From Candidatus Thioglobus autotrophicus (lineage in GTDB: Bacteria; Pseudomonadota; Gammaproteobacteria; PS1; Pseudothioglobaceae), in contig JAKUUR010000017.1 of assembly GCA_022448455.1 (NCBI GenBank), forward strand, positions 1-34,371: a stretch of DNA of 34,371 nt, in the 5' to 3' direction. Each line of letters starts with the position of its first letter. Positions within the stretch are counted from its first letter, which is position 1. Below the pieces are notes generated by a model, which was not told the origin of the DNA, did no database searches, and saw only the letters and a program-made list of their open reading frames with translations. Both the position numbers and the translations under genes were made by a program. Positions 30,727-34,371 of this stretch are shown piece after piece.

Positions 30727-31365
30727 ATGACAGTTGATTTGACTAATCTCAGAAAAGAGTTTCGACAAACCGGACTGAACAGATCTGAGCTCGATAGTGA
30801 TCCATTTAAGCAGTTTTCGCTTTGGTTCTCTCAGGCAATCAAGGTGGGTATCGTTGAGCCCAGTGCTATGAGTTTGGCAACTGCTGATGAGAACGAGATT
30901 GGCATTCGCACAGTGCTCCTCAAGCATTTCGATGACAAAGGTTTTGTTTTTTTTACGAACTATGGTTCAAAAAAATCCCAACAAATTGAAGTAAAACCTC
31001 AGGCTGCCCTTTTGTTTTCATGGTTAGACCTAGACAGGCAAGTAAAAATCGTTGGTAGCGTCGAAAAGATAACAACGCTTGAATCAATTAAGTATTTTGC
31101 TTCAAGGCCAAAAGATTCACAGCTGGGTGCTTGGGCTTCACAGCAATCTGCAACAATCTCCTCAAGAAGTTTACTGGTCAGTCAATTTGAGTCAATGAAA
31201 AATAAATTTTCTAAAGGAGAGGTGCCTTTGCCTGATTTTTGGGGAGGTTACCGTGTAATACCTCAGAGTATTGAGTTTTGGCAAGGAAGAGAGAGTCGAC
31301 TGCACGATCGATTCATTTATCAGCGTTCAGAGACTGGCTGGAGCATTAATCGGTTGTCTCCCTAA
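30727..31365 (+). CDS. pdxH: Pyridoxamine/pyridoxine 5'-phosphate oxidase
   Basis: FMN-dependent oxidase that makes pyridoxal 5'-phosphate. 212 residues, normal for the family. Motifs are [59 protein letters not shown] and the C-terminal [11 protein letters not shown] plus [13 protein letters not shown], which bind FMN and substrate. It follows the hydroxylase gene by 11 nt (likely operon) and its end overlaps convergent aroE by 20 nt. Confidence 0.97.
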
Positions 31366-32158
31366 GAGATTTTAATACTTCTTTTGTTTCTGGGGTCTTG
31401 CCATGCCAAAAAGCAAAAGCGCTGGCAGCTTGCTCGACCAACATCCCAAGACCATCAGTCACTGCTAGAGCAGAGTTTTCCCTTGCCCACTGCATAAATG
31501 GTGTTTGCTTACCATACATTAAGTCATAACATAGCGCACCAGCGGCAACACCTGGTGCAATTTCAGGCATTTTTCCATCCAATGAAGCGCTCGTGGCATT
31601 AATGATAATATCTACAGGTTTGGCTTTTATTTGATCTAAACCAAAGCCACAAACTTTGCCATACTCGCTAAAATTGTTTGCCAATTTTAAGGATTTTGTT
31701 TTTGTTCGGTTTGCAACTAAAATACGTTCTGGTTGACATTCTAGTAATGGTAGCAAGATGCCCTGAGTCGCACCACCAGCCCCTAAAATTAAGATGTCTT
31801 TTCCTTTGATCGACTGTTGTAAATTATTACAAAGGTCGTTAACAAGGCCGATTCCGTCAGTATTTTCTCCATAAAGAGTGCCATTTTCCACTTTAATGGT
31901 ATTGACAGCACCTGCAGTCTTTGCATTTAAGGTGTACTCATCTATAAGATCGTATGCTTCAACTTTAAATGGGACGGTGATGTTGAATCCCAAAGCGCCA
32001 GAACTGATAAAGTTTTTGGCAGCGACACTAAATCCGTCTAGTGGTGCTAGAATTTTTTTATAACTCATTGAAAGCCCAATCTGCTTAGCAAATTGGGCGT
32101 GAATAGTCGGTGACAAGCTATGATCAACAGGATTGCCAATGACAGCGTATTTATTCAT
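31346..32158 (-). CDS. aroE: Shikimate dehydrogenase
   Basis: NADP-dependent reduction of 3-dehydroshikimate to shikimate. The shikimate site is [15 protein letters not shown] (8-22) with the catalytic Lys in [18 protein letters not shown] is conserved, the dinucleotide loop is [19 protein letters not shown] gives the NADP-binding Arg, and [14 protein letters not shown] and the C-terminal [14 protein letters not shown] are standard. 270 residues, normal. It lies 8 nt after the RNase E gene on the same strand and may share its transcript. The second shikimate-pathway gene in the window (with aroC). Confidence 0.97.
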
Positions 32159-32166
32159 ATATCGAA

Positions 32167-34029
32167 CTATTGAGTAACCTTTTCAGTCGATTTTTGTTCG
32201 GTGTTTGAAGCAGCTTTCTGATTTCGGTTTTTATTCTGATTGCGGTTTCTATTCTGGTTCTCAGAACTCTTCTTATTTTCACCTCTTTTTTGGTTTCTAT
32301 TCTGGTTCCGATTCCGATTCCGATTCTGATTCCTATTTTGTGGTCTGGTAGTTTTTTGTTGGGGTGTTGCTTGCTTTTCTATAGAAAACATATCAGACAG
32401 TTTGCTCATAAATGAGGCCTTTCTTTCAGGCATTTTAGTTGAAGGGTGGTTGGCTAAAATAACTGGCATTTCCAGCTTTTCAAGATAATTAATTTCGTTG
32501 TGATTGATTTGAGGTTTTGATATACCTTGAAAGCTTTTGTGTTGCGATTTTTTGTCACCCTTTTGCTTATTTATACTGAAGCTTGGGAATTCCATATATT
32601 GGTTAGGTAACAAGGTTATCTTAATACCATGCTTAACCTCCATATCAATTATATTTTGTCTTTTTTCATTAAGCAGATAAGTGATTACTTCAACGCTTGA
32701 CTGAATTGTAACATCACCATTAATTTTTCTGGAGTTAAGTGAATCCTCAAGCTGACGAATAATGTTAAGCGCTAGCGTAGGTATGGTTGGTGTTGTTCCA
32801 CTTCCATTGCATTGCGAACAAGTTTTGCCTGTTGACTCTGCTACCGAGTTCATTAATCGTTGGCGTGACAACTCTAGCAGGCCAAATCTTGAAATTGTTC
32901 CAATTTGAACGCGCGCACGGTCATTGCCAGTTGCTTTCTCCATGGCCTTTTCAATAGCAACTCTGTTTTCTTCTATTGCCATATCAATGAAGTCAATAAC
33001 GATCAAACCTCCAATATCTCTTAGCTGTAGTTGGACAGCAATTTCTTCTGCAGCATCTAGGTTTGCTTTAAAGGCTGTGTCTTCAATACTGGTACCCCTC
33101 GTTGCTCGTGCGGAATTAATATCGATGGCTGTTAATGCCTCTGTTGTATCAAACACAATTGTCGCTCCAGATTTAAGTATCACTTCTCTGTTAAAGACAC
33201 TTTTGACCTGTGATTCGACACTCATGTGAGCAAATAAAGAATGTTCAGTAATATCGAAATACTTAATTCGATCTAGATAGTGTGGCATCACAAAGCTAAC
33301 AAAGTCTCGGGCCTTTTGATAGGTTTCTAGGTCGTCAATTATGACGCTATCAGTATCTTCTCTGAGATAGTCACGTAGAGCTCTTACAGTTATATCACTC
33401 TCTTGATAAATTAAAAAAGGTTCGTCTTGATTCTTTGTTGCAGTTTTAATAGACTTCCAAAGTTGCGTCAAATGATCTACTTCCCACTGTAATTCTTGAA
33501 GGCCTTTTCCTGCGCCTTCTGTACGAATTATTAGACCTGAATGTTTTGGGACTTGCAACTTTGGTAAAAGGTTTTTTAGATCTTGTCGGTCAGTTGCATT
33601 AATCTGTCTTGAGATTCCAGAACTTTTTGGATTATTGGGGGTAAGAATCATGTAAGCACCAGCCAAATTGATGTAGGTACTAAGAGCAGCACCCTTGTTA
33701 CCTCGCTCTTCCTTTTCAACCTGAACGATGATTTCTTGACCTTCCCTGAGAACGTCACTGATTGTTAGTTTATCGCCTTTAGGTTTGACACTATCAGCAA
33801 AGAACTTTGAAACCTCTTTGAACGGCAAAAAGCCGTGTTTTTCTTTGCCATAATCTACGAACGCAGCCTCAAGAGACTGCTCTACTCGAGAGATTCTTGC
33901 TTTGTATATGTTGCCTTTAGTTTTTCGATTTAGTCTTGTTTCTATATTGAGATCAGTTAGCTTCTGATCCCTTACTATGGCCACTCGAATTTCTTCTTTG
34001 TGGGTGGCGTTGATAAGAATGTGATTCAT
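32167..34029 (-). CDS. rne: Ribonuclease E, short form with Asn/Arg-repeat tail
   Basis: Endoribonuclease central to mRNA decay and rRNA/tRNA processing. N-terminal ILINATHKEEIRVAIV and NIYKARISRVEQSLEAAFVDYG start the S1-containing sensor region. The DNase I-like site has the two metal-binding aspartates in TEALTAIDINSARATRG and GLIVIDFIDM. CSQCNGSG is the zinc-link CxxC that joins dimers. At 620 residues it lacks most of the about 500-residue degradosome scaffold of E. coli RNase E. From about residue 555 it is an Asn/Arg/Gln repeat (RNRNRNQNRNQ), probably RNA-binding and disordered. RNase G is shorter (about 490), and the opening sequence fits RNase E better. Ribosome binding site AGGA (34040-34037) sits in a hairpin of the leader. 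Confidence 0.9.
   Translation of the reverse strand: MNHILINATHKEEIRVAIVRDQKLTDLNIETRLNRKTKGNIYKARISRVEQSLEAAFVDYGKEKHGFLPFKEVSKFFADSVKPKGDKLTISDVLREGQEIIVQVEKEERGNKGAALSTYINLAGAYMILTPNNPKSSGISRQINATDRQDLKNLLPKLQVPKHSGLIIRTEGAGKGLQELQWEVDHLTQLWKSIKTATKNQDEPFLIYQESDITVRALRDYLREDTDSVIIDDLETYQKARDFVSFVMPHYLDRIKYFDITEHSLFAHMSVESQVKSVFNREVILKSGATIVFDTTEALTAIDINSARATRGTSIEDTAFKANLDAAEEIAVQLQLRDIGGLIVIDFIDMAIEENRVAIEKAMEKATGNDRARVQIGTISRFGLLELSRQRLMNSVAESTGKTCSQCNGSGTTPTIPTLALNIIRQLEDSLNSRKINGDVTIQSSVEVITYLLNEKRQNIIDMEVKHGIKITLLPNQYMEFPSFSINKQKGDKKSQHKSFQGISKPQINHNEINYLEKLEMPVILANHPSTKMPERKASFMSKLSDMFSIEKQATPQQKTTRPQNRNQNRNRNRNQNRNQKRGENKKSSENQNRNRNQNKNRNQKAASNTEQKSTEKVTQ
32305..32333 (-). repeat. 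Hexanucleotide repeat inside rne tail
   Basis: Four to five tandem copies of GATTCC/GATTCT-like hexamers. On the coding strand they read CGGAAT repeats, encoding alternating Arg-Asn. It is the purest part of a longer degenerate Asn/Arg-coding tract (about 32200-32340). Slippage here would change tail length in steps of two residues without a frameshift. Confidence 0.75.
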
Positions 34030-34244
34030 GATAAAGTCCTATAATATCTGGACTATTGAGTACGTACAAAGCCTCAATACTTGTGTATTGAATTGGAATA
34101 AGGGGTTGAATAAAGTGATTCATCAATTACTAAATAGGGTCCTGTATGTGGCGTCAATTAGCCCAGTAAACTACCTTAATTTCATTGTTGTTAGTATTAA
34201 GGTGTCTGTAAAAAAAATTCTTGTGGGTCGAAAAAATGTTCGAC
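34030..34244 (-). promoter_or_regulatory. Structured rne 5' leader, probable autoregulatory element
   Basis: Minus-strand leader of about 215 nt. Stems in transcript order: GTCGAA/TTCGAC (34244-34239 with 34232-34227) at the predicted 5' end; ACCTTAAT/ATTAAGGT (34203-34196 with 34180-34173), 8 bp with a 15-nt loop; then TCAATAC/GTATTGA (34091-34085 with 34080-34074, 4-nt loop), which competes with TATTGAG/CTCAATA (34079-34073 with 34060-34054) for the same segment. Last is AGTCC/GGACT (34054-34050 with 34039-34035), which hides the AGGA ribosome binding site. E. coli rne also has a multi-hairpin leader through which RNase E represses its own synthesis. Confidence 0.6.
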
Positions 34245-34250
34245 GACTAA

Positions 34251-34259
34251 ATTATACCA
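34251..34259 (-). promoter_or_regulatory. Extended -10 of the rne promoter
   Basis: On the minus strand TGGTATAAT is a perfect TGnTATAAT extended -10; no strong -35 is seen. Predicted start is near 34244, the first base of the 5' hairpin. A palindrome ACCATA-A-TATGGT overlaps it. Confidence 0.45.
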
Positions 34260-34282
34260 TAATATGGTTTAATTTAACCTTT

Positions 34283-34371
34283 TTACTGATTAAGACTCCG
34301 ACCCCCGTCAATGTTGATAACCTGGCCAGTAATATATTTGGCATTAACTAAAAATAATACTGCTTGTGCTC
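34283..34371 (-). CDS. Short-chain dehydrogenase/reductase, C-terminal end only
   Basis: The last 29 codons of a gene that enters from the right edge. The translation AQAVLFLVNAKYITGQVIN followed by IDGGRSLNQ is the typical C-terminus of an SDR enzyme: YITGQ then the DGG turn. Wording near the end recalls pteridine reductase (FolM-like) proteins, which end in an IDGGRSL-type sequence, but this fragment cannot decide. Its stop codon is 24 nt from the rne -10. Confidence 0.75.
   Translation of the reverse strand, partial: AQAVLFLVNAKYITGQVINIDGGRSLNQ

Follow-up and report, generated by a model that had tools for sequence, protein, structure and literature searches.

The window, the whole stretch of DNA analysed here (34,371 nucleotides), is one contig of the 1.7 Mb genome of Candidatus Thioglobus autotrophicus. 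A minus-strand gene near its end matches the Rne/Rng family ribonuclease profile and is taken here as rne. Its ATG start codon lies at 34027-34029, and aroE (31346-32158) comes after it. A further minus-strand gene ends upstream of the rne leader, with a stop near 34283; it presumably encodes a protein of the short-chain dehydrogenase type, which its C-terminal motif resembles. The tail of the encoded RNase E is rich in Asn, Arg and Gln (NRNQNRN repeats). Across the family the length of the rne ORF varies widely, mostly from ~576 to 804 aa with one of 394 aa on a short contig. At locus L127 the rne match (1501-2750) covers 1250 nt instead of 1029, which suggests a ~221-nt insertion in the 5′ part of the gene. 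A plus-strand ORF of 107 aa (34028-34351) runs opposite the rne leader; it is probably a by-product of the leader sequence and was taken as spurious. In E. coli an annotated ORF, yceQ, is also antisense to the rne leader of that species.

Candidatus Pseudothioglobus aerophilus and MAGs of the SUP05 cluster are among the relatives that share 83-94% identity with the window rne; at 70-77% there are, among others, Candidatus Thioglobus, Ruthia, Vesicomyosocius and Bathymodiolus gill symbionts. We take the family of the window genome and these relatives, marine sulfur bacteria and symbionts of clams and mussels, to be the Thioglobaceae. The search for the gene covered 58 relatives first and 83 family genomes afterwards; the DNA upstream of it was fetched and named genomes were added. 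The 151 loci obtained (E. coli aside) gave 150 leaders with a readable start, 94 of them distinct, of which 70 were taken as family leaders spanning Pseudothioglobus, Thioglobus, Ruthia, Vesicomyosocius and the mussel symbionts. Setting aside the insertion-bearing leaders L039 and L057, which stay in the 70-leader counts of the upstream ORF (uORF), left 68 leaders.

The leader belongs to neither of the two rne leader families searched for. The rne5 model (RF00040) has no match at E≤10 in positions 33950-34371, which gave two chance snoRNA hits (E 7.4 and 8.6). As a control, E. coli DNA searched in this way yields rne5 with a score of 260 bits. No match to rne-II (RF01756) was obtained at E≤10 in the window stretch, and a comparison of eight family loci with both models gave nothing at E≤1. 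Membership of rne5 and of rne-II was thus rejected, in agreement with a previous sequence-only reading of this DNA, which had considered the leader different in sequence from that of E. coli. From its 5′ end the leader consists of an extended −10, a hairpin (Pa), a U-rich stretch, a second hairpin (Pb) and a long-range lock (P1+P2) that encloses an AU-rich domain containing hairpin P3. The features are the following:

34251-34259, minus strand: extended −10 TGGTATAAT, an element found by script in 64/68 family leaders
34227-34244, minus strand: Pa, 5′-terminal hairpin GTCGAA/TTCGAC, whose arms co-evolve
34210-34222, minus strand: single-stranded conserved stretch AAGAAUUUUUUUU (DNA AAGAATTTTTTTT), candidate RNase E site
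34173-34203, minus strand: Pb, hairpin ACCUUAAU/AUUAAGGU (DNA ACCTTAAT/ATTAAGGT), with co-evolving arms at 34196-34203 and 34173-34180
34154-34164, minus strand: P1 5′ strand, GGGCUA with the genus-specific extension AUUGA (swap tests)
34141-34149, minus strand: P2 5′ strand ACAUACAGG (swap tests)
33953-34123, minus strand: uORF of 56 codons and a stop, in a different frame from rne and extending over the first 26 codons of that gene (open frame)
34075-34090, minus strand: P3, hairpin CAAUAC/GUAUUG (conservation and one covarying pair)
34062-34071, minus strand: P2 3′ strand CUUUGUACGU (swap tests)
34050-34059, minus strand: P1 3′ strand UCAAUAGUCC, whose AGUCC (34050-34054) doubles as the anti-Shine-Dalgarno (anti-SD) strand of P4 (swap and folding tests)
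34035-34054, minus strand: P4, AGUCC/GGACU hairpin hiding AGGA, mutually exclusive with P1 and chosen by RNAalifold on 23 leaders of the genus
34037-34040, minus strand: Shine-Dalgarno (SD) sequence AGGA of rne; AGGA lies at most 16 nt from the rne ATG in 69/70 leaders
32167-34029, minus strand: rne, RNase E/G family, 620 aa (profile TIGR00757, 462 bits)

Promoter and helices of the leader

All elements that the sequence-only reading had noted between 34030 and 34259 are present in the minus-strand sequence. Its extended −10 is conserved in the family: besides the leaders in which the script found the element, of which L029 was misplaced, the true one of L029 and those of the four leaders missed are visible by eye. 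In 21 of the 22 leaders of the window genus 6 nt separate the extended −10 from the first paired base, and in the remaining one 5 nt do; the six bases in between vary in sequence though their spacing is kept. Such a spacing is the one expected for transcription that starts at the first base of hairpin Pa, predicted at ~34244. The fixed gap supports the start that had been placed there, and the hairpin claimed for the very 5′ end is a perfect 6-bp stem that begins at the predicted first base. A consensus sigma-70 scan misses this promoter (2 sites found, 1.6 expected) and no −35 hexamer with 4/6 matches was seen by hand at 16-18 nt from the extended −10, so that the promoter call relies on the extended −10 and its conservation. 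These make it likely that the rne leader has a promoter of its own.

The minimum free energy (MFE) of the window leader is −40.1 kcal/mol against −29.2 (sd 4.0) for dinucleotide shuffles (z −2.75; 2/200 shuffles as good), and the segment 34046-34170 alone gives z −2.84 with 1/200 as good. The fold is better than chance without being extreme, and such statistics taken alone are only suggestive; we turned therefore to comparison with relatives. In the swap test, an alignment-free measure of co-evolution, each 5′ segment is paired with its own 3′ segment or with those of other genera. It was applied to 64 of the 68 leaders for Pa and Pb, with L029 anchored at the wrong place, and to 67 for P1+P2, the script having chosen the wrong strand in L068, which was left out of this test and of the folding tests.

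The arms of Pa co-evolve, 21 of 20000 genus permutations being as good as the true pairing, and so do those of Pb (0/20000). The Pb sequence depends on the genus: it is CCUUAAU/AUUAAGG in the window and UUUUUGUG/CACAAAAA or CAUUCGUG/CACGAAUG in others. Between the two hairpins, at the equivalent of 34210-34222, AAGAA and at least six T are found in 23/23 loci of the genus, and AAGAATTT (a AAGAAUUU-type stretch after Pa) in 54/68 family leaders. This U-rich stretch is a candidate cut site for RNase E.

The pairing with the strongest comparative support is the lock, which was absent from the sequence-only reading. In the window 34154-34164 pairs with 34050-34059 (P1) and 34141-34149 with 34062-34071 (P2), and the lock dominates the MFE structure. 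The P1+P2 duplex has a mean energy of −19.7 kcal/mol with its own partner and of −14.1 kcal/mol with those of other genera, the own partner being better in 62/67 leaders. This was not equalled in any of 20000 permutations across the nine genera, nor in any of 5000 within the diverse genus g4, and four control segment pairs showed no effect (z −0.3, 0.3, 0.9 and 0.7). Relatives that are mussel symbionts have a near-continuous helix at the position of the lock, for example UGGCUUUUUUUGCCAUGCGAUAGAG with CUCUAUACGCAUGGAAAAAGGCC in L028 (−31.7 kcal/mol including flanks). Other genera (L025-L030 and relatives) carry by eye extra hairpins between P2 and P3, such as AAGGGU...ACCCUU, that are absent in the window genus. 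In line with this, their lock domain measures ~170-220 nt against ~138 nt in the window genus.

Individual columns were followed in an alignment of 62 leaders, with the register of L028 set by hand and the P1 starts of 12 further leaders anchored by hand; it omits L058, L060, L067, L068, L031 and L071 because of length changes or divergence, an omission that flatters the column counts. P1 and P3 each keep at least 5 of 6 pairs, in 59/62 and 58/62 of these leaders, respectively. The only significant pair in a column covariation test (our own R-scape-like script) belongs to P3 (E 0.02). The other pairs are non-significant in this low-power test, P1 and P4 having almost no variation and P2 shifting its register from genus to genus. 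With 23 leaders of the genus as input, RNAalifold predicted P3, P4 and a local hairpin but not the lock. The evidence is thus strong for helices that co-evolve as units and weak for individual pairs. Compensatory change in relatives, on which the sequence-only reading had counted, is found accordingly at the level of the helix (Pa, Pb and P1+P2 in the swap tests), with little to see at single pairs.

A strand shared by the lock and the Shine-Dalgarno helix

AGUCC (34050-34054) pairs either with GGGCU upstream, in P1, or with GGACU (34035-34039) at the SD, in P4. The two helices sharing this strand are mutually exclusive, one of them hides the SD, and both are kept in 57/62 aligned leaders; P4 keeps at least 4 of its 5 pairs in 58/62. 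A final stem hiding AGGA had been proposed from the sequence, and AGGA (34037-34040) does lie inside AGTCC...GGACT (34035-34054), a stem that we consider possible. The proposal of mutually exclusive hairpins fared differently: a conserved exclusive pair exists, P1 against P4 through 34050-34054, but it is not the one proposed. The segment put forward, GTATTGAG (34073-34080), can indeed pair upstream (CAATAC, within hairpin 34075-34090) or downstream (CTCAATA, 34054-34060). The downstream pairing has 6-7 of 7 pairs in 20/22 leaders of the genus and in 0/40 of the other aligned family leaders, and the competing hairpin is P3, kept across the family as described above; this alternative was rejected as a conserved switch. 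Part of 34054-34060 extends P1 in the window genus.

The middle U of AGUCC forms a G-U wobble in P1 in 54/62 leaders, and the SD base that it faces in P4 is A in 62/62. A C at this position, the base present in 6/62 (L025, L028, L049, L053, L065 and L127), would strengthen P1 and break P4. The wobble is the compromise expected if both pairings matter, and is the best argument that the sequence offers for both. In the folding model, removal of the 5′ strand of the lock raises the mean number of P4 pairs from 1.56 to 4.58 (n=67), and lowers the openness of the SD from 0.46 to 0.24 (0.46 to 0.27 in the window), with a fall in 66/67 leaders that exceeds 0.2 in 33. The same model has P4 outpairing P1 in 19/67 leaders even when the 5′ strand of the lock is present. 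The balance between P1 and P4, a computed quantity, would then be near even, and the closed lock would not clearly be the default everywhere.

We read this region as a conserved cis-regulatory leader of the rne mRNA that would act post-transcriptionally, with feedback from RNase E exerted through the lock and the anti-SD strand, a reading to which we give an even chance. Its main rival is a decay platform without a switch: a folded structure of the E. coli kind that would bind RNase E and direct decay of the rne mRNA, with P4 incidental and no effect on translation. This explanation is possible though we rate it on the improbable side. It has a precedent in E. coli, where RNase E both binds the leader of its own mRNA, at a hairpin, and cleaves it (PMC3997798), and P1, P2, Pa and Pb are all supported independently of P4. 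The SD-hiding helix itself has near-invariant columns, with too little variation to be scored for covariation, and P4 alone in the window does not stand out from shuffles (p 0.136; p<0.05 in 30/62 leaders). Given P1 with its GGGCU, P4 needs little beyond the middle U. A platform does not account, however, for the resemblance between GGGCU in the 5′ strand of P1 and the SD string GGACU, nor for a U that forms a Watson-Crick pair with the SD and has to accept the wobble in P1, and the rne5 model finds no match here.

An open frame through the leader, and its loss

The uORF starts at an ATG at 34123 and its stop ends at 33953, so that the frame runs through P3, the 3′ strands of the lock and the SD. 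This frame is free of stops in 63/70 leaders over an 87-nt stretch, made up of the 85 nt that precede the rne ATG and 2 more, while each of the other two has a stop in every leader (0/70 open); the stops total 15 in the uORF frame and 183 and 161 in the others. In 57/70 leaders the frame has an ATG 60 nt or more upstream from which it stays open as far as rne, the first one being at −94 in 41 and at −91 in 12. Column shuffles had as few stops in 5, 51 and 62 of 2000 cases in genera g1, g3 and g6, and in 209 of 2000 in g2. Among 19 representatives chosen by hand the frame has zero stops, matched by 0/300 shuffles. Conservation of the amino-acid sequence is modest (z 2.5, 2.6, −0.4 and −0.4 in four genera, with L058, L060, L067 and L068 excluded from g2; 1.8 over the 19 representatives), third-position changes are not in excess, and three uORF peptides compared with Pfam gave nothing at E≤1. 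We read these data as pointing to a frame kept open by selection, more for the passage of ribosomes than for the peptide. Coding alone was rejected as an explanation of the conserved leader since the uORF does not include Pa, Pb or the 5′ strands of P1 and P2, whose helices co-evolve; RNA structure alone was found insufficient as well, since one frame alone is open.

The uORF could also be the main regulator. Ribosomes would then pass over the start of rne in another frame, and their passage would be coupled to initiation at rne or compete with it; the helices would modulate their traffic and RNase E would not be the signal. Besides the openness of this one frame and the near-constant position of its ATG, the length of the AGUCC-SD interval agrees with such a role, as its changes keep the frame (7, 10 or 19 nt) outside the Vesicomyosocius-type leaders. 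We nevertheless hold this explanation to be quite unlikely: 48 of the 57 leaders have no SD-like string before the uORF ATG, 6 of the 11 g4 leaders have no upstream in-frame ATG, and the peptide is only modestly conserved. Moreover, seven leaders have stops in the frame, among them the insertion cases L039 and L057, and two of the seven (L048 and L051) keep an intact lock.

A covariance model built from 24 representatives matches 71 of 83 genomes of the order, all of the same family and with one match each. In a sample of the class it matches 4 of 369 genomes, all four of this family, under strict filters and a completeness floor, the family of 345 misses not being broken down. In the six genomes compared (G000, G029, G035, G067, G071 and G102) the rne ATG marks the end of the match. 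The leader of G034 (L031) is missed by the model yet its lock folds as a duplex (−19.8 kcal/mol) and AGUCC/GGACU is present. Four genomes of 1.0 Mb (L058, L060, L067 and L068) have AAAUCC or AAAUUC instead of AAGUCC, with 1-2 extra bases before it; the leaders L060 and L067 equal those of named Vesicomyosocius. Stops interrupt the uORF frame in L058, L060 and L067, L068 is open in this frame with no upstream ATG, and L058 retains a changed, fully paired P1 (GGAUUU/AAAUCC). In these reduced genomes of endosymbionts the erosion of the sequence and that of the uORF frame go hand in hand.

In G060 and G074 insertions separate the model match from the rne ATG. The one in G074 (L057) is a short mobile element in the P4 loop, between the anti-SD strand and the SD, with inverted ends GAGACCTTTGCATAAATA and repeated CTACT flanks; this leader is identical to the locus L112 of Candidatus Thiodubiliella endoseptemdiera. 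Allowing one mismatch or none, G074 has 295 forward and 297 reverse copies of the end sequence, G031 has 27, G081 has 62 and the genome of the window has none. In L039, identical to the leader of a Candidatus Thioglobus perditus locus, an insertion ~30 to 130 nt upstream of rne splits the lock from the SD, and a further GTCC...GGAC pair is found at the end of the model match.

An RNA thermometer or another physical sensor, in which temperature or salt would set the P1/P4 balance, would suit the near-even balance of the folding model but is very improbable in our view, the element being found once per genome, with rne, and with the same architecture in lineages that record titles describe as free-living and as host-associated, neither point being decisive.

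A proposed model for the control of rne

Comparison of the relatives at the sequence level bears out the co-evolution of Pa, Pb and P1+P2, the conservation of P3, the open uORF frame and the strand shared by P1 and P4. What had been called a complete autoregulatory leader is real, conserved and structured, and its autoregulation may reasonably be supposed. In the lock/anti-SD reading, GGGCU, AGUCC and the SD would be transcribed in this order and the lock would form first; with the lock closed GGGCU would hold AGUCC and leave the SD exposed. Were the 5′ strand of the lock lost or unpaired, AGUCC would fold onto GGACU and the SD would be hidden. RNase E, the presumed trigger, would cut the AU-rich domain between the lock strands and so remove GGGCU, upon which P4 would close. 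Translation of rne would then stop and its mRNA be exposed to decay, a feedback loop whose sign we presume to be negative. Ribosomes on the uORF, if it is translated as we suppose, would open the lock and P4, shield the cut sites and tune the response. Cutting of this leader by RNase E is proposed by analogy with the E. coli, Synechocystis and RNase Y cases. Since the U-rich site at 34210-34222 lies outside the lock, cutting there would not release AGUCC.

A more specific form of the lock/anti-SD reading, which we put forward as a speculation with a rather small chance of being right, is a nuclease-sensing riboswitch, a leader that would gauge RNase E activity through its own cleavage. A cut between the lock strands would free the anti-SD strand, already in place, and shut down translation of the mRNA left downstream, and ribosomes on the uORF would protect and reset the device. 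The cleavage itself would thus switch translation off, beyond the effect of mRNA decay alone.

Two-state translational switches (anti-SD/anti-anti-SD riboswitches) and leader-peptide attenuators are known kinds of regulators. The rne leader shares with them the 5′ order of anti-anti-SD, anti-SD and SD strands and a reading frame that passes through the switching helices. It differs in having no known ligand, in a uORF that overlaps the gene by ~26 codons and in its proposed trigger, cleavage by a nuclease. To our knowledge a uORF overlapping the start codon is a layout rarely described for bacterial regulation.

Among rne leaders, rne5 of E. coli and relatives is likewise a long structured 5′ UTR, autoregulatory in E. 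coli, while the leader of the window family is set apart by its long-range lock, anti-SD strand and uORF, and no hp2-like motif was seen in it by eye. The rne-II motif is positioned before rne. Like the leader described here it is structured; it takes its name from rne and belongs to a different lineage, the Pseudomonadales (PMC2864571). The rne 5′ UTR of Synechocystis has a U-rich single-stranded site in the leader that its RNase E cuts (PMC10989929); there cutting was shown, here the site is a candidate by its sequence, and the available part of that paper describes no lock or anti-SD strand. The rny leader of Bacillus subtilis also precedes an endonuclease gene and has cut sites in its 5′ UTR, and RNase Y controls itself partly through 5′ UTR cleavage linked to ribosome occupancy (PMC10303841). 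The enzyme belongs to another family and a conserved lock or anti-SD strand is not mentioned in the available part of that report (PMC10303841).

Among the literature matches listed, no title concerned the rne leader in Thioglobus, SUP05 or relatives. Structured rne leaders were already known; what is new is a lineage-specific one that combines a likely switch of the anti-SD type with a uORF overlapping the gene. RNase E governs mRNA turnover, and E. coli feedback-controls the level of the enzyme through the rne leader. A separate leader, specific to a marine lineage with SUP05/Pseudothioglobus and chemosynthetic symbionts among its members, supports the view that rne leaders have been re-invented with their logic retained. 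If the lock/anti-SD reading is true, the family would offer a concrete design in which the nuclease's own cut is the switching signal, combined with a uORF placed over the start codon.
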